DNA from: Brevibacterium atlanticum
GTDB taxonomy: Bacteria; Actinomycetota; Actinomycetes; Actinomycetales; Brevibacteriaceae
Direction: 5' to 3'
Length of the DNA: 64,000 bases
Assembly (NCBI RefSeq): GCF_011617245.1
Contig: NZ_CP050152.1
Coordinates: forward strand, 4,082,503 to 4,146,502
Below are positions 10,680 through 18,783 of this stretch, in pieces. The position numbers were made by a program, and so were the translations under genes. The notes below the pieces were generated by a model. That model was not told the origin of the DNA, ran no database searches, and saw only the letters and a program-made list of their open reading frames with translations. Position 1 is the stretch's first letter, and each line of letters opens with the position of its first letter.

Positions 10680-11954
10680 CTACTGGCCGGTGGTGATCGA
10701 GTCGTCGTTGATGCCGCGGGCGCGGCGCTCTTCGAGGCGAGCGCGCTGCGGTTCGACGACGTGACGGGGGTCCTTCGTCGACTCGATACCGGCCTCGAGC
10801 ATCCCGAAACGGGTGTACGCCGAGGCGGCCGCCAACGCGGCACCCGAGACGACGGACAGTCCACGCAGAACGGCGCGAGTCTTCCAGCTGCGTTTGCCCA
10901 CGCGGCCCACGCCACCCAAGCCACCTGCTGATCCGACGGCATCGGCGATCTTCTCGACGGTGCTGCCGGTTGTGCCTGCACCCCGCCCACCGAGCTTCTT
11001 CGCGAACACCCGCGCGCCCACCTCGACGGCAGCGGCGCCGACAGCGCCCGCGATGAGCAGCTTCTCGGCACGGTGGAGCTTGTGTCCCGGTTCGCCGTCT
11101 TCCATCGGGTCGACCTCGGCCGGGTGCATGCGCTTCTTCATCCGGCTCATCGCGACCATATCGCCAACGGCCCCGGTGAGCGCGAGCAGTCGCGCCGGGC
11201 CCGTCTCCCGCACCGGAGCGAGCGCCATCGCAGAACCCCCGGCAGCCAGGGAAGCCGAAGACACGAATACGTACGGCAGACCGTTGCGACCGGCAGCGTT
11301 CCAGGTGGGCACGGCCGTCGCACCGAGCAGCACCGCCGTGTACGCGGCCAGCGGTGTGGCGAAGAGTGCCGACTCGAGGGCCGCCGGAGTCTCCATCGCG
11401 TGGAGCACCTTGCGCAGCGGTCCCAGCGGAAGCAGCTTCTCCCCCGTGACCCGGTCGAGCTCGACCGCGAACGTCACACCCGATCCGACGCCGAAGCCCG
11501 AAAGGATCCAAGTGCCCAGACTCATCGGCGAGGACACCTTGACCACGCGCATCATGTTGATGAACCGTTCGGGCCGGCCGAGGTCGGCGACCAGTGCCAC
11601 GCCGCCGACACCGGTCGCGGTGATCGCCGTCATCCGGGTGGCGATGCGCAGACCGGGCCGATCGGTCATCTGTGCGCCGAGGCCCAGCAGCGACGACCCG
11701 CCGGCGAGTCCACCGAGGAACAGGTAGAGCGCGATCTCGTGGCCCCACGGCGGAGCCTTGACGATCGGTCGACCGTAGTACGAGGTGAACTCGACGTCCT
11801 CGACCATCGGCATCTCGCGATTGCCGTCGGAACCGCGGTTCTTCCACCCGCCGCCACGGCGACCACCGGGACCTCCGCGGCCACCTCGGCGACGTTTCTT
11901 ACGTCCGCCTTCGGGCTCGGGTGGGCGGTAGGAATCGTATTCGGAGACGCTCAT
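10680..11954 (-). CDS. NrfD-type membrane subunit of formate dehydrogenase
   Basis: A 424-residue NrfD/PsrC-family polytopic membrane protein expected to pass electrons from the ferredoxin subunit to menaquinone. Hydrophobic segments begin near residue 70 and recur through the centre of the protein. The first ~45 residues are unusual: a strongly basic Arg/Lys/Gly-rich stretch (for example RKKRRRGGRG) before the conserved part. The C-terminal ~160 residues form a further extension with one or two hydrophobic segments. The ATG overlaps the ferredoxin-subunit stop (ATGA). It ends the operon. Confidence 0.85.
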   Translation of the reverse strand: MSVSEYDSYRPPEPEGGRKKRRRGGRGGPGGRRGGGWKNRGSDGNREMPMVEDVEFTSYYGRPIVKAPPWGHEIALYLFLGGLAGGSSLLGLGAQMTDRPGLRIATRMTAITATGVGGVALVADLGRPERFINMMRVVKVSSPMSLGTWILSGFGVGSGVTFAVELDRVTGEKLLPLGPLRKVLHAMETPAALESALFATPLAAYTAVLLGATAVPTWNAAGRNGLPYVFVSSASLAAGGSAMALAPVRETGPARLLALTGAVGDMVAMSRMKKRMHPAEVDPMEDGEPGHKLHRAEKLLIAGAVGAAAVEVGARVFAKKLGGRGAGTTGSTVEKIADAVGSAGGLGGVGRVGKRSWKTRAVLRGLSVVSGAALAAASAYTRFGMLEAGIESTKDPRHVVEPQRARLEERRARGINDDSITTGQ

Positions 11955-13078
11955 GAACGGCGGCTCCCGAGGAACGCGAGGCCGACCGCCGCGACCATGC
12001 CCAGCGCCGCAACACCGGCATGGGCGAACATTCCGGGCAGGTCCTTCGTCGCCACCCGAGGATCCGGCGGCAGGCCGTAGACCTCGGGTTCGTCGAGGAG
12101 GAGGAAGACGGACCCGGTGCCGCCGACTCCGTCGTTGGGGTTCGCTCCGTAGAGCCGGGCCTCGGTCAGACCCTTCGCGTGGAGTTCGGCGACTCGTTCA
12201 TGCGCCTTGTCCACCATGTCCGTCCGGTCGCCGAACTTGATCGACTGAGTCGGGCAGGTCTTCGCACACGCCGGCTCCTCACCATCGACGAGGCGGTCGT
12301 AGCAGAGCGTGCACTTGTTCGCGGTGCCCGCGTTCGGGACGTCCATCTCCGCGGCCTTGCGGTCATCACGGTCGGTGGGCGTGTTGATCGTGCCGTCGTC
12401 ACGACGTTCGATGACGCCGAAAGGGCAGCCGGCCACACAGGTGCCGCAGCCGTTGCAGACGTCGTTCTGAACGACGACGGTGTCGAATTCGGTGCGGAAG
12501 AGCGCTCCGGTCGGGCACACGTCGAGGCAGCCGGCGTGCGTGCAGTGCTTGCACACGTCCGAGGACATCAACCACCGGAAGTCCGCGGTGTCCGGTGGGG
12601 TGGTGTCGACCCCGGTCAGATCCGCCGGTTCGAGTGCCCCGGGGGCGAGGAGATCGACATCGAGTTGCGGCGTCGTCGGCAGTCCGTCACTGGTCCGACC
12701 CTCATCCGCGGCACCGAGCGCCCCGCCCAGAGGCTGGGCTGCGGCACTCTCATCGGTGCGGGGCCGGATGGTGGGCATGCCGAGGTTGACGAGCTTGCGC
12801 CCGGATTCGCGGGCCTTCTCGATCCGGTCCGAGTCCTGCTCGATGAAGGCGACGTGACGCCAGGTATTCGCGCCGAGGCTGCCCGTGTTGTCGTACGAGG
12901 AGCCGAGCAGTTCGAAGGTTCCGTCCTGGGGATTGCGGTTCCATTCCTTGCAGGCGACCTCGCAGGCCTTGCAGCCGATGCAGATCGAGGTGTCGGTGAA
13001 GAACCCCTTGCGATTCTGCGTCGAATCGTGCCAGTGGCCGTCAGCGACCGTGCCGCTGTCCAACGTCGAAGCCGACAT
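11951..13078 (-). CDS. Formate dehydrogenase iron-sulfur subunit
   Basis: A 375-residue electron-transfer subunit (FdnH/HybA type). Four cysteine groups for [4Fe-4S] clusters are visible: CIGCKACEVAC near residue 33, CKHCTHAGCLDVC, CNGCGTCVAGC, and CTLCYDRL followed by CAKTC. A stretch of about 60 residues between the first and second groups is longer than usual. One hydrophobic helix near the C-terminus (HAGVAALGMVAAVGLAFLG) probably anchors it, as in FdnH. The ATG overlaps the stop of the catalytic subunit gene as TGATG. It links the molybdopterin subunit to the NrfD subunit. Confidence 0.92.
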   Translation of the reverse strand: MSASTLDSGTVADGHWHDSTQNRKGFFTDTSICIGCKACEVACKEWNRNPQDGTFELLGSSYDNTGSLGANTWRHVAFIEQDSDRIEKARESGRKLVNLGMPTIRPRTDESAAAQPLGGALGAADEGRTSDGLPTTPQLDVDLLAPGALEPADLTGVDTTPPDTADFRWLMSSDVCKHCTHAGCLDVCPTGALFRTEFDTVVVQNDVCNGCGTCVAGCPFGVIERRDDGTINTPTDRDDRKAAEMDVPNAGTANKCTLCYDRLVDGEEPACAKTCPTQSIKFGDRTDMVDKAHERVAELHAKGLTEARLYGANPNDGVGGTGSVFLLLDEPEVYGLPPDPRVATKDLPGMFAHAGVAALGMVAAVGLAFLGSRRS

Positions 13079-16000
13079 CAGTCATCCTCCCCTTCATCGC
13101 TGGTTCCATTGTCCACCTGATCCGAGCCCGTGCCGGCATCCGACGTGCCGGAGCCCTCGGCCTTCTCCCGGGCGCGTTCGTCGAGCTGAGCCTGCGCACG
13201 CTGCGCCTGCTCCGCCTCGGCGTCGCGGACCTCGGAGTCAGTGACGGCCGATCCGTCGAGATCACGGCCGTGATCGGGATCGCCGTCGGTCGTGTCCCCG
13301 TCATCGGCCGCATTTGCGTCGGCCGTGTCGACCGGCTGCAGATCGACGCGTCCGGTGCGATCATCGGCGCTCTCGACCGTCGGAGCGTCGACTGTTTCTC
13401 CGCCGAGCGTCTTGCCCGGGGTCACGCCCACTGCCGAGTCACCTCCGCGGTGGGGGTGGCCGCCGACGCTGTGTCCGGCACCGGCGGCGGAGGCCGCTTC
13501 GACATCGGATTCGGGCGCAGTGACCTGTTGGTTTCCGGACTCCGTGGTCAGACCGGCCTCACGCTGGTACTTCTCGACGAAGTCGACGAGCTCCGGTCCG
13601 CGCGGACGCCTGCCGGGCACGATCGTGCCGGCGACGTACTTGCTGTTCTGGATGAACACGTTCGGATCCATCGTCACGCCCAGCAGGTCGTTGGCGGAGT
13701 CGCCCTCGACGACGGCGCCCTGACCGCCCACGCCCCAGTGGTAGGGCAGGCCGATCTGGTGGACGGTGCGTCCGCCGATGGTCAGCGGGTTCATCCGCTT
13801 CGTCACGAGCACGCGGGCCTCGATCGCCGCCCGCGGGGAGACCAAGGTCGCCCACCCGTAGGGCTCGAGCCCCACCTCGGCGGCGAGCTCCGGTGAGATC
13901 TCGCAGAACATCTCCGGCTGCAGCTCGGACAGGTACGGCAGCCAGCGGGACATGCCGCCGGCGGTGTGGTGCTCGGTGAGCCGGTAGGTCGTGAACACGT
14001 ACGGGAAGACCTCGGAGCCGGGATAGCCGGCACCCGATGCGGACAGGTTGTCCCCGCGCCGCATGACCTTCCGCGTCGGGCTGTTCTGCTGCGGGTAGAG
14101 CGGATTGGCGACCGTCGACTCCTGCGGTTCGTAATGCGTGGGCATCGGGCCGTCGACCATGCCGCTGGGCGCGAAGAGCCATCCCTTGCCGTCGGACTGC
14201 ATGATGAACGGGTCGTCACCGTCCAAGTGGGCAGGACCGCCGTAGGCCTGATCCGACCTCGCCGCGGGGGCGCGATCGATGGGGAAGTCGGGCACGTCCT
14301 TGCCCGTCCACTTCCCGGCCTCTTCGTCCCACCAGACGAACTTCTTCCGCTCCGACCAGGGGGTTCCATCCGGGGCCGCCGAGGCGCGGTTGTAGAGGAT
14401 GCGCCGGTTCGCCGGCCACGCCCACGCCCATTCGGCCGCGGTCTCGTCCTGCTCGCTGCGCGGTTTGCGCCGAGCGGCCATGTTCACACCACCGGCATAG
14501 ACGCCGGCGTAGATCCAGCAGCCACCTGCTGTGGTTCCGTCGGAGGCGTACTGGTTGAAGTTCTCCAACGGCTGGCCATCGTCCTCGCCGCCGACCCGGT
14601 AGCCGTTGATCTCCTTGACCACGGCTTCGGCATCGACCTCGCCCTCCTCGTCGACCGGGTAGTCCCAGGTCAGATCGAGCAGCGGACGATCACGCGGATC
14701 ATCGGAGTCGGCCAGCTTCTCCTTGATCCGCTGACCGAGCTCGTAGAAGAAGTCGAGTTCGCTCTGCGCATCCCCCGGCGGGTTGACGGCCTTGTGCCGC
14801 CACTGCACCAGACGCTGGGTCTGAGTGAAGGTGCCGGCCTTCTCCGTGTGGTTGGCCGCGGGCATGAAGAACATCTCGGTCTCGATGTCCTCGGTCTTCA
14901 TCTCCCCGGTCTCGATCTCCGGGCCGTCCTTCCACCAGGTGGCGGATTCGATGAGGCTGAAGTCGCGCACGACCATCCACTTGAGATGGCTCATCGCCAT
15001 CCGCTGCATGCGGCCGTTGGCCGACCCCACGGCAGGGTTCTGGCCGAGCAGGAAGTACCCGTCGACACCGTCGTTGAGCATGCGCACCTGCGTCTGGTAC
15101 GTGCCGTGGGCGCCGTTGATGCGCGGCAGATAGTCGTAGGCGAAGTCGTTGTCCGGTGTCGCCGCATCGCCCCACCAGGCCTTGAGCAGACTGACCGCGT
15201 AGCTGCGACCGTTGGCCCAGAAGCCCTTGTGGGTCTCCGGGGTGCCGACGGCTGCGACGTAGTCATCGAGGGTGTCGTGGACACCGGCGCTGGGCATCGG
15301 CAGATAGCCGGGCAGCAGGTTGAACAGCGTCGGAATATCGGTCGATCCCTGGATCGTCGCGTGTCCGCGCAGCGCCATGATTCCGCCGCCCGGTCGTCCC
15401 ATATTTCCCAGCAGAAGCTGGAGGATGGAAGCGGTGCGGATGAATTGCGCGCCGAGGGTGTGCTGAGTCCAGCCGACCGCGTAGGCGAAGCACGTGGTCC
15501 GTTCCCGGCCCGAGTTCTGCGTCACCGATTCGAAGAGGTAGTCGAAGTCGGCGGGTTTGATCCCGCAGTTCTCCTCGACCATCTCGGCGGTGTAGCGCGA
15601 GTAGTGCCGCTTGAGGATCTGGAACGCCGTCCGCGGGTCCTCAAGCGTCGGGTCGGTCAGGGGCGCACCGTGCTCATCGGTCTGGTAGGACCAGGTCGAG
15701 TTGTCGTACGAGTTCGTCTCCGGGTCGAAGCCGGAGAACAGTCCGCCGAGGTCCTCGGTGTCGACATAGTCCTCGCTGATGAGGTTCGCGGCGTTCGTGT
15801 AGGCACGCACGTACTCGTCGAAGTGCTTGCCTTCGGTGAGCACCCGGTTGATGAGCGCGCCGAGCAGCACGATGTCCGAGCCCGCCCGGATGGGGACGTG
15901 CTTATCGGCAATCGCGGTGGTGCGCGTGAATCGAGGATCGACGTGGATGATGCGGGCACCTCGGGCCTTGGCCTCGCTCACCCATTGGAATCCCACGGGG

Positions 16001-16689
16001 TGGCACTCGGCCATGTTGGAACCCTGGATGATGATGCAGTCCGCATTCGCCATATCCTGGACGGGTTGTGTGGCGCCGCCTCGCCCAAACGAGGTTCCCA
16101 GACTGGGAACCGTGGCGGAGTGTCAAATACGCGCCTGGTTCTCGATCTGTATGGCTCCCGCGGCGGTGTAGAGCTTCTTCGCGAGGTAGTTCTCTTCGTT
16201 GTCGATGGTCGCCCCGCCGAGGCTGGCGATGCCCATCGTGCGCCGCAGCGGGTGGCCCTTGTCGTCGAAGTCCTCCCAATGCCTGCGGCGGGCTTCGAGG
16301 AAGCGATCGGCGATCATGTCGATCGCGGTGCTCAGTCCGATCTTCTGCCAGTCCTTGGCCCGCGGTGCGCGGTAGAGGACGTCGGTCACGCGGCCGGGAG
16401 CGTTGACGAGTTGTTCGCTGGCAGCACCCTTCGGGCACAGGCGCCCGCGCGAAATCGGCGAATCGGGATCGCCTTCGATCTGAATGACCTTGTCGTCCTT
16501 GACATAGATCTTCTGGCCGCAGCCGACGGCGCAGTAGGGGCACACAGACTGGACGACCTTGTCGGCCTCAGCGGTTCGAGGAGTGGTGTCTCGGGTCTTC
16601 TGGGACGTCACCGATTCGCCGCGACCCGTCCGATCGGACGTGCGGAACTGCCGGAGTACCGGCCATTCAAGGAAGCTGAACCGAGCCAT
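13078..16689 (-). CDS. fdhA: Formate dehydrogenase catalytic subunit (selenoprotein)
   Basis: Molybdopterin formate dehydrogenase, 1203 residues when the in-frame TGA at 16123-16125 is read as selenocysteine (residue 189). Translation continues without a gap across it: IENQARI, then Sec, then HSATVPSLG. This matches the NQARV-Sec-H context of E. coli FdnG. Cys50, 53, 57 and 85 bind a [4Fe-4S] cluster; the bis-MGD domains follow. There is no twin-arginine signal, so the enzyme is probably cytoplasmic. The last ~160 residues form an acidic, Asp/Glu/Gly/Ser/Thr-rich tail absent from typical FdnG (about 1015 residues). A pipeline ignoring Sec would split this gene at the TGA into 16123-16689 and 13078-16053. 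Confidence 0.9.
16093..16125 (-). promoter_or_regulatory. Sec codon and bacterial SECIS element
   Basis: The TGA (16123-16125) is followed after 11 nt by a hairpin with stem GGTTCCC/GGGAACC (16093-16111) and apical AGTCT. E. coli fdhF also has 11 nt between UGA and its upper stem, and its apical loop contains GGUCU. Position, stem and loop therefore all fit a SelB-binding SECIS. The host must carry selA, selB, selC and selD elsewhere; none is seen in this window. Confidence 0.85.
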
Positions 16690-16887: not shown

Positions 16888-17316
16888 TCACCTATCGACG
16901 CCCGGGTCGGCCGGGATCGAATCCGGGCCGGTGCCTTCGGGCTCGGCAGCCTCGGCGGCGGCCTGCTTATCCAGTTCCGCGCGGACTTCGTCCATATCGA
17001 GTCCCTTGACGGCGGTGATGACCTGTTCGAGCTGGGGTGCGGCGAGCGCGCCTGGCTGGGCGAAGACGACGATGCCCTGGCGGAAGGCGACGAGGGTGGG
17101 GATGGAGGTGATTCCGAAGAGTCCGGCCAGCTGCTGCTGGGCCTCGGTGTCGATCTTGCCGAAGACGATGTCGGGGTTGTCCTCGGAGGCCTTCTCGTAG
17201 ACCGGAGCGAACTGCTTGCATGGGCCGCACCAATCGGCCCAGAAGTCGAGGAGGATGATCTCGTTGTCGTTGATGGTCGATTCGAAGGTGTCCTGAGTGA
17301 TCTCGATCGTAGACAT
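16888..17316 (-). CDS. Thioredoxin with C-terminal tail
   Basis: A 142-residue thioredoxin with the redox motif WCGPC (Cys30, Cys33), FWADWCGPC context, and the cis-proline segment SIPT. After the ~105-residue fold there is an acidic Ala/Glu/Pro-rich tail of about 35 residues. The ATG at 17316 is preceded by TAGACT (17324-17329) with 7 nt between, so the message is probably leaderless; longer upstream frames lack thioredoxin character. Cytosolic disulfide reductase. It is separated from the fdh operon by a strong terminator, so co-function with it is not implied. Confidence 0.92.
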   Translation of the reverse strand: MSTIEITQDTFESTINDNEIILLDFWADWCGPCKQFAPVYEKASEDNPDIVFGKIDTEAQQQLAGLFGITSIPTLVAFRQGIVVFAQPGALAAPQLEQVITAVKGLDMDEVRAELDKQAAAEAAEPEGTGPDSIPADPGVDR

Positions 17317-17391
17317 GGGCGCCAGTCTAGGGGCCGACCATGAATACTCACTGGACAGGGGCATCACTGGCGTACGTGAGGCGCGCGCGAC

Positions 17392-17443
17392 TTCACTGCT
17401 CGGGGGCAGACAGGACGGGCTTTCACTGCTCCGGGGCAAGCAG
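17392..17443. repeat. 22-bp imperfect direct repeat at fetB 3' end
   Basis: Copies at 17392-17413 and 17422-17443 share 19 of 22 positions (TTCACTGCTC, then GGGGCA, then CAG). The second copy encodes the last residues and stop of the FetB-type permease; the first lies just past the stop and would encode nearly the same ending. It looks like a small tandem duplication of the gene end. Confidence 0.7.
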
Positions 17444-18169
17444 AACGCGTGCACCGGCGGCGATGTGGGTGCCGAGGACCGCAGTGATCGCTCCGGCGAG
17501 GATGAGCGAGCCGAGCACGACGATCTGGAACTCGGCGGCCTCGAGCGGTGACGCACCTCCGAAGAGGGCGCCGACGAAGGCTCCGGGAAGCGTGACCAGT
17601 CCGGTGTTCTTCGTCTGATCGAGGTTCGGCAGCAGCGCCTCTCTGATGGATTCGCTGCGCAGACGCGCCACCGCCTGCCGAGGCTTGGCGCCGAGGGACA
17701 GCCACGCCTCGACCTCTCCGGATCCGGTGCGCAGGTTCGCGGCGAAGCGCCGCATCGACAGGGTCGCCACGGTCATGCAGGTGCCGGTGACGATCCCGGC
17801 GATGGCGATGACCCGCTCGAATTCCCGGTCGACGAGACCGAGGACCAGCACGAGCCCCAGAGTGGTCAGGGATCCGACGATGACACCGGTGACCGCGCCG
17901 AGGCGGCCGCGCGGCAACTGCCGGGCGCGCCGCAGGGAGGTCACCGAGGCGGTGGTGAGCATGAGGGCGATGAACGCGGCGACGGTCCACCACGCGTTGA
18001 GGGCACCGTGGAGAAGGAGCGCGACGAGGGCGAGCTGGACGACGGCACGCAGGATCGCGACGATGGGCAGCCACCCGAGCCCCACCTCGGCGAGGCGAAG
18101 GATGATCACCGCGATGACGACGAGCACGGCGATGCCCAGCAGCAGCGGCAGGACCTCGGCGATCAACAC
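17423..18169 (-). CDS. fetB: FetB-type ABC permease (UPF0014)
   Basis: A 248-residue polytopic membrane protein of the FetB/UPF0014 family, with about seven hydrophobic segments. Conserved family segments are seen in ATLSMRRF, the SLGA region and LVTLPGAFVGALFGG. In E. coli FetA (ATPase) and FetB form a metal exporter linked to iron homeostasis. No FetA ATPase is adjacent here, so the permease is an orphan in this window. Translation starts at GTG (18169). The next gene upstream is a TetR regulator on the same strand, ending at 18208. Confidence 0.85.
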   Translation of the reverse strand: MLIAEVLPLLLGIAVLVVIAVIILRLAEVGLGWLPIVAILRAVVQLALVALLLHGALNAWWTVAAFIALMLTTASVTSLRRARQLPRGRLGAVTGVIVGSLTTLGLVLVLGLVDREFERVIAIAGIVTGTCMTVATLSMRRFAANLRTGSGEVEAWLSLGAKPRQAVARLRSESIREALLPNLDQTKNTGLVTLPGAFVGALFGGASPLEAAEFQIVVLGSLILAGAITAVLGTHIAAGARVLLAPEQ

Positions 18170-18207
18170 GAGATCAGTCTATGGTCGCCGAGGCGGGGCA
18201 GGGCCGA

Positions 18208-18783
18208 TCAGTCCGCCAGCGTACCGGCCGCTCGCCCGAGGTCGGTGAGGGCGGTGTGAGCCAGTTCGCTGAGGTCGGTCTGGGGTCCGGCGTCGATCCA
18301 CGCCGCGTAGGCTTCACCGAACGCCACGGTGCCGAGGTGAGCGGCGATGATCGCGACCTGCCGCTCGACTCCACGCTCCTGCAGCGCCGATGCCATTCCG
18401 TCGGTGAGGGCACGATGCTTTGCGGCGTCTCGTTCCTGCAGTTCGACGTTCTCCGAGATCACGCGGCGGATCCGTGGACCGAGTTCGCGGTGGAACGGGG
18501 TCATCGACGACGAGACCTCGTCGAGTCCTGCGCGGACCGCCTCGAGTGGGCCGACTTCGGCGGGAGCCGAAGAGATGCCGTCGACCAAGAGTCGCAGCAT
18601 TTCGTCCTGGCCTGCCGCGAGGACTTCTCGCTTGTCGGGGAAATAGCGGAAGAAGGTGCTCTTCGTCAGTCCTGCACGCGCTGAGATCTCAGCGACCGTC
18701 ACACCGTCGAAGCCGTTTTCGGCGAACATGTCGAGAGCAGCGACGACGAGTCGATCGCGAGCATTCGGGGTCCAACGGGGCAT
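18208..18783 (-). CDS. TetR-family transcriptional regulator
   Basis: A 191-residue TetR-type repressor. The N-terminal helix-turn-helix covers about residues 8-55 (ISARAGLTKSTFFRYFPDKREVL pattern), followed by a helical ligand domain. The ATG at 18783 was chosen because the HTH begins within ten residues of it and upstream codons lie in the operator region. It is divergent from a Rossmann-fold reductase/epimerase gene. The shared 105-nt spacer holds two copies of a palindromic operator (18823-18867), a typical layout for a local repressor of the neighbouring enzyme. Confidence 0.9.
   Translation of the reverse strand: MPRWTPNARDRLVVAALDMFAENGFDGVTVAEISARAGLTKSTFFRYFPDKREVLAAGQDEMLRLLVDGISSAPAEVGPLEAVRAGLDEVSSSMTPFHRELGPRIRRVISENVELQERDAAKHRALTDGMASALQERGVERQVAIIAAHLGTVAFGEAYAAWIDAGPQTDLSELAHTALTDLGRAAGTLAD

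Follow-up and report, generated by a model that had tools for sequence, protein, structure and literature searches.

A formate dehydrogenase gene of Brevibacterium atlanticum with an in-frame TGA almost certainly read as selenocysteine

The genome of Brevibacterium atlanticum (assembly GCF_011617245.1) is a single contig of 4,156,794 bases, NZ_CP050152.1, of which we analysed positions 4082503-4146502 (64,000 nucleotides, hereafter the window). Its minus strand carries a gene for the alpha subunit of a formate dehydrogenase (FDH) in which codon 189 is a TGA. We are highly confident that this gene codes for a membrane-anchored selenocysteine (Sec) FDH, the UGA of codon 189 being predicted to be decoded by SelB and Sec-tRNA-Sec by means of a downstream hairpin, the selenocysteine insertion sequence (SECIS). 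Judging from sequence, the TGA is almost certainly read as Sec and the gene is not broken. The evidence comprises the frame around the TGA, the alignment of this codon with Cys codons of relatives, a constrained and covarying hairpin, and the presence of sel genes together with the co-occurrence of tRNA-Sec and TGA-bearing FDH genes. The elements concerned are the following (positions in the window):

13078-16689, minus strand: FDH alpha subunit (molybdopterin, 4Fe-4S), 1203 residues with the putative Sec189, recognized by frame, Pfam and NF041513.
16123-16125, minus strand: in-frame TGA, codon 189, almost certainly read as Sec, supported by the frame and by the TGA or Cys codons across 182 loci.
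16093-16111, minus strand: candidate SECIS hairpin GGTTCCC-AGTCT-GGGAACC with U17, G23 and U24 (E. coli numbering), supported by conservation, covariation and a score of 66.4 bits with SECIS model R1.

The initial annotation, made from this DNA alone, had joined two reading frames across the TGA, and this was borne out: positions 13078-16689 form one frame of 3612 nt (1204 codons) whose sole internal TGA is codon 189. The table 11 list of open reading frames (ORFs) splits the gene into 16123-16689 and 13078-16053, and the codons that follow the TGA translate as HSATVPSLGTSFGRG. The TGA had also been placed at the active-site position in an FdnG-like context, and it does align with Sec196 of E. 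coli FdnG. The expected mass of the product is 131 kDa if the TGA is read through and 21 kDa if translation ends there. The protein contains the Pfam domains Molybdopterin, Molybdop_Fe4S4 and Molydop_binding, and belongs by a full-length match of 1845.6 bits (curated cut-off 1400) to NF041513. It also passes TIGR01553, the model for FDH-N alpha subunits, with 935.9 bits (cut-off 814.2). Of 80 named loci listed as matches to the protein, the first 19 all come from Brevibacterium.

Loci found with NF041513 bear a Sec or a Cys codon at position 189: among 182 loci aligned (of 183 searched), the codon is TGA in 164, TGC in 16 and TGT in 2. These loci include a few duplicate fetches of the same gene (e.g., L206 and L147). 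In that gene, from genome G341, one TGA had been counted inside the FDH match, yet TGC occupies the Sec position and the stop lies elsewhere in the match. Thinning to less than 93% nucleotide identity left 129 Sec and 16 Cys representatives. In a FastTree phylogeny of 121 rows, calculated after removing columns 180-206, the 16 Cys rows were set apart from all others by a single branch (support 98) and lay nested among Sec rows. This arrangement fits one replacement of Sec by Cys, a direction that we infer on an unrooted tree.

These data bear on the alternative that the gene is broken, its TGA reflecting either a nonsense mutation or an error of sequencing and its product being no more than a fragment of 188 residues. 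The table 11 frame does stop at 16123. However, a broken gene does not account for 164 of the 182 loci sharing this TGA while the other 18 have Cys codons, for the conservation on both sides of it, or for the tRNA-Sec that accompanies the TGA-bearing gene (see below), and we consider this alternative close to negligible. Since many other assemblies have the TGA at this codon too, a sequencing error is excluded, and the TGA is genuine, as had been supposed. It had further been anticipated that an annotation ignoring Sec would report a broken gene; this holds for the table 11 frame, but the FDH genes of two plasmids, from Arthrobacter and Tsukamurella, are annotated through the TGA as one coding sequence. 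With the TGA read as Sec, a false pseudogene call is removed for the alpha gene.

The hairpin begins 11 nt past the TGA, and counting by eye gave the same spacing for E. coli fdhF (TGA-CACGGCCCATC-GGTTGCA) and fdnG (TGA-CACGGACCAAC-GGTAGCA), in agreement with the initial description of a hairpin with an AGTCT apex at the fdhF distance. Synonymous conservation beyond codon usage was concentrated in this region, the 14 top-ranking of 999 windows, each 13 codons long, all beginning at codons 182-195 (91 representatives). Across 40 diverse sequences, pairing holds in 96.4% of the cells of the 7-bp helix, and 16 cells have both sides changed versus 3.1 in shuffles, none of 500 shuffles being as high; the helix also surpasses all six slid versions of itself in paired cells and covariation score. 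The third bases of codons 194 and 198 pair as T-A in 88, C-G in 26, T-G in 10, G-T in 4 and G-G in 1 of the 129 Sec representatives, and are unpaired in 11 of the 16 Cys homologues. Codon 195 is CCC (Pro) in 129/129 Sec representatives, and Ala, Val or Ser replaces this residue in the 16 Cys homologues. Since the invariant CCC is lost in the latter, a protein residue, Pro195, seems to be imposed by the RNA element. A lower stem between codons 190-192 and 204-205, for which a small number of registers were tried, was rejected, some parts pairing well and others not at all.

The bases U17, G23 and U24 of the E. coli SECIS are those given in excerpts of PMC8659212. In the genes examined here, T17, G23 and T24 are invariant in all 129 class Sec representatives, and among 28 Sec genes of the wider phylum they were found in 28, 21 and 26 cases, respectively. 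U17 is described as bulged in E. coli, whereas here it stands opposite a variable base (A in 77, G in 47 and T in 5 of 129). When scored with the SECIS model, nine out of ten Cys homologues reached 17.5-25.8 bits and the tenth (L150) had no match, as against 66.4 bits for the window. A scan of the genome with this model, in which 150 of 3479 first-look candidates were scored, returned the alpha hairpin at 66.4 bits, its opposite strand at 17.2 and one further place at 19.2 (E 1.25).

The genes selA, selB, selC and selD were all found in the genome, including the selB and tRNA-Sec genes on whose presence the initial annotation had made its proposal depend (positions on the contig):

4073566-4073656: selC (tRNA-Sec), 77.9 bits; tRNA-SeC with anticodon TCA according to ARAGORN.
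4072123-4073463: selA match, adjoining selC.
4070943-4072088: selB match, 257.5 bits (cut-off 242.25), adjoining selC-selA.
4080127-4081029: selD, ending about 1.5 kb before the window start.

SelB has GTPase domains and a C-terminal winged helix, and SelD itself carries Cys (HGGGCACKIPP). On the same contig, the alpha gene is separated from selC-selA-selB by about 22 kb and from selD by about 14.5 kb. An IS110-family transposase gene (17161-18327 of locus L009, minus strand) lies between selD and the window start.

Gene and machinery occur together in other genomes. In the family, own genome included, a TGA-bearing FDH gene was found in 54 of 60 genomes, in one piece in 3 and as an N-terminal piece in 51, a few of the 54 being split over contigs or frames. 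A tRNA-Sec of at least 72.8 bits was detected in 53 genomes, all of them within these 54; the remaining one, G011, has the TGA gene but no strong tRNA-Sec, and its assembly is in about 250 contigs. Six genomes (G022, G030, G037, G039, G057 and G058) have neither, their best tRNA-Sec E values being 6.6e-8 or weaker versus 7.4e-15 or better in the 53. The family mostly retains the Sec system together with this one enzyme. The patchy distribution that had been suggested does not apply within the family but does at class level, where 80 of 296 sampled genomes pass the NF041513 cut-off.

In the class, tRNA-Sec was searched for in 41 genomes, mostly from the head of the list of 80. All 24 genomes in which only a TGA copy was seen carry tRNA-Sec (at least 69.3 bits), 15 of the 16 in which only a Cys copy was seen do not (best score 49.8 bits), and G190 has a TGA copy, a Cys copy and tRNA-Sec. 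"Only a Cys copy" refers here to the two candidates that were scored in each genome; the G133 copy is fragmented. We counted tRNA-Sec only at 69 bits or more and took matches up to about 50 bits as other tRNAs, because a 48.7-bit match in the B. atlanticum genome is a tRNA-Ser according to ARAGORN; G095 (49.8 bits) and G133 (47.3 bits), both above the Rfam gathering score of 47, were accordingly counted as lacking it.

The same data were weighed against readthrough without Sec, in which a near-cognate tRNA (for Trp or Cys) or a +1 frameshift would pass the UGA. A UGA followed by C is a weak stop, and the AUU-UGA-C of the alpha site is similar to the prfB frameshift site. On the other side, the hairpin and tRNA-Sec accompany TGA and are mostly missing where a Cys codon is present. 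As for a +1 shift, frame 0 is conserved past the TGA, with NF041513 matching over the whole length, and therefore no shift makes the main product; an ORF of 213 amino acids that spans the site (15902-16543) is by its coordinates in the -1 frame and so would be of no use to a +1 slip. We regard readthrough without Sec as very improbable, and decoding by SelB and Sec-tRNA-Sec remains the preferred explanation.

Several results weigh against Sec decoding through this hairpin. Two of five helix measures failed against shuffles, namely pairs changed on both sides (288 of 500 shuffles as high) and further pair types (111 of 500). The outermost pair of the helix is unpaired in 5 of 40 rows, and when independent pairs were taken on the tree (10 pairs), the median p was only 0.03, which is borderline. 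E. coli fdnG gave no match with the SECIS model, and an Rfam scan of the window gave nothing at the gathering threshold. Folding energy after the TGA was not exceptional against synonymous shuffles in 16 loci, with a mean z of -0.59 at codon 189 (gene-wide mean -0.17, s.d. 0.33), outside the ten lowest of 121 windows; a second run gave z values between -0.83 and 0.02 at starts 186-193. Folding energy fails to single out the SECIS because these genes are GC-rich and fold everywhere. Lastly, genome G265 has a tRNA-Sec of 80.7 bits though only a Cys-type FDH was seen in it, and neither sel genes nor selenoproteins were found in the four ORFs scanned around this tRNA-Sec (L205 around 9965; L146).

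A further constraint was found immediately upstream of the TGA:

16126-16128, minus strand: Ile codon ATT directly before the TGA, its third base being only A or T in class Sec representatives.

Codon 188 is ATT in 101 of the 129 Sec representatives, ATA in 26 and GTT in 2, so its third base is T 103 times, A 26 times and never C or G, in genes whose third positions are about 90% G/C overall. The 16 Cys representatives have GTC (8) or GTG (8). Elsewhere in the same 129 Sec genes Ile is encoded by ATC 4738 times, ATT 272 times and ATA 62 times, and each of 26 other conserved-Ile columns (91-row set) has at least 68% ATC. For 105 Sec rows, the best tree requires the base to have changed at least 16 times between T and A and never to C or G. 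As a control, the base before an ordinary terminal TGA is C in 42, A in 23, G in 20 and T in 1 of the 86 TGA stops found among 100 loci (out of 129) whose stop codon was within reach. Since all these rows are related by descent, plain products of probabilities are not p-values.

In a wider sample of the phylum, 28 Sec genes (own gene excluded) have ATA in 20, GTT in 5, TTG in 2 and GTC in 1, the U/A rule being kept in 25, so that the preference there is strong but not absolute. GTC precedes the Sec TGA in E. coli fdhF and fdnG, in five proteobacterial plasmid Sec FDHs and in Indioceanicola, and ATA precedes it in Thermomicrobium. These counts omit Paracoccus, which has an N at that position, as well as the GTC-bearing Cys copies of Azospirillum, Chelatococcus and Nonomuraea. 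The preference for U or A before the Sec UGA is, as read from these genes, real in the sample and lineage-bound. With moderate confidence, we propose that in Actinomycetota this base is itself part of the recoding signal, an upstream, lineage-bound element for Sec insertion that would have been relaxed upon the change from Sec to Cys and would be absent from the proteobacterial Sec FDHs examined. AUU and AUC are decoded by one tRNA-Ile, and the constraint would therefore lie in the mRNA base or in the wobble pair at the P site and not in the amino acid or the tRNA. Our guess is that a weak P-site third base, or an unpaired base directly before the UGA, gives SelB an advantage over release factor 2. 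We also considered that translation might restart at an ATG or TTG that overlaps the UGA, and rejected this: GTG would then be permitted too, yet G is absent before the UGA in the 129 class representatives.

Sandman and Noren reportedly published on the base downstream of UGA. No report of a rule on the base or codon before the UGA was found, in a search that left subscription literature mostly outside and is accordingly weak evidence of novelty; nor is such a rule present in the excerpts of PMC4513850, PMC3834832 and PMC8659212 consulted. Comparing the Sec with the Cys relatives amounts to a clean natural experiment on the requirements of a bacterial SECIS, among them an upstream base that goes unmentioned in those excerpts of element descriptions.

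The alpha gene is followed by two further genes that form with it one operon of overlapping genes:

11951-13078, minus strand: 4Fe-4S beta subunit, with Fer4 domains and a one-base overlap with the alpha stop (TGATG).
10680-11954, minus strand: membrane anchor subunit of the NrfD/PsrC type (PF03916, 71.1 bits).

The beta subunit has one hydrophobic stretch, at the C terminus, and stays below the FDH-N beta model TIGR01582 (163.5 bits, cut-off 334.7); a crude scan gave three hydrophobic stretches for the anchor. The third gene being NrfD, a cytochrome b gamma subunit is absent as a partner. Upstream of the alpha gene, about 200 bases away on the same strand, is a gene for a thioredoxin-fold protein (window 16888-17556, minus strand). 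We suggest that SelB carrying Sec-tRNA-Sec would decode the UGA at codon 189, positioned by the hairpin 11 nt downstream with its U17, G23 and U24. Once inserted, Sec189 would serve as a ligand to Mo in the bis-MGD cofactor, and the electrons taken from formate would flow to the Fe-S subunit, then to NrfD and into the quinone pool. No twin-arginine motif was seen by eye, without a signal predictor, in the N terminus of the alpha subunit (MARFSFLEWPVLRQFRTSDRTGRG), and the catalytic side is therefore probably cytoplasmic.

By analogy, the alpha subunit would work like the Sec FDHs known from E. coli. Its likeness to FdnGHI lies in passing TIGR01553, in the aligned Sec codon and in the 11-nt hairpin spacing, and to that extent the FdnG-like context described initially was sound. 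It does not extend further: FdnG has a Tat signal (it starts MDVSRRQFFK) and a cytochrome b partner, whereas the protein described here has no such signal and has an NrfD anchor; alpha identity is 39%, and E. coli fdnG has GTC before the TGA where ATT is found here. By these comparisons, the enzyme is the actinobacterial FDH of NCBI (NF041513) with an NrfD anchor, a kind already known, and not FdnGHI. Within NF041513, Brevibacterium members differ by a long acidic C-terminal tail. In the window this tail (13081-13548, minus strand) is of low complexity, with 156 residues starting at about residue 1048, pI 4.05 and 25 Asp; counted after residue 1017, tails measure 120-207 residues in 20 named Brevibacterium loci versus 46-90 in named loci of other genera, and 80 residues in G007, of the same genus.

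Comparable gene sets are found on plasmids: pYA7-1a of Arthrobacter sp. YA7-1 and plasmid 17 of Tsukamurella tyrosinosolvens NCTC13231 have FDH alpha, 4Fe-4S, nrfD, selD, selA and selB in a row, and their FDHs are 70-71% identical to the alpha subunit described here. These sets are compact and plasmid-borne, whereas that of Brevibacterium is chromosomal and split. On pYA7-1a, typed as conjugative (L208 8001-17874, NZ_CP110115.1), the module has tRNA-Sec between selD and selA and is bordered by an integrase gene and, at its opposite end, by a Tn3 transposase; it is possibly a self-contained, movable Sec system. The Tsukamurella plasmid (L219 12001-21553, NZ_LR134459.1), with the same order of protein genes, is typed as non-mobilizable. 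In the record of plasmid pKGP2 of Paracoccus marcusii (L213), the frame is lost at the Sec position through an N directly preceding it, perhaps a base-calling gap.

Sec FDHs and the transfer of the Sec trait, including Arthrobacter, were surveyed earlier according to excerpts of PMC1794560 and PMC5029168. Among the matches listed for Brevibacterium with selenocysteine or selenoprotein, there was no paper on Brevibacterium selenoproteins. The nearest published system we encountered, as far as excerpts of its description go, is that of A. chiangmaiensis DSM 45062, whose genus we take to be Actinomycetospora. The excerpts describe FDH1 and FDH2 as membrane-bound Sec FDHs with alpha subunits of 1078 and 1089 amino acids, FdhB1 and FdhC1 as having 362 and 366, and SelA and SelB as encoded within the FDH1 cluster, and report FdhA1, SelA, SelB and SelD as detected proteins (PMC7176365). 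With selenite, formate accumulation became almost negligible, which its authors credit to membrane FDH1 and cytoplasmic FDH3, both Sec enzymes (PMC7176365); given FDH3, the selenium effect does not come from FDH1 alone. In the same excerpts FdhC1 is not called NrfD. In comparison with FDH1, which has sel genes in its cluster, the B. atlanticum enzyme has its selC-selA-selB and selD genes at the distances given above, has a longer alpha subunit of 1203 residues, and is known from sequence alone.

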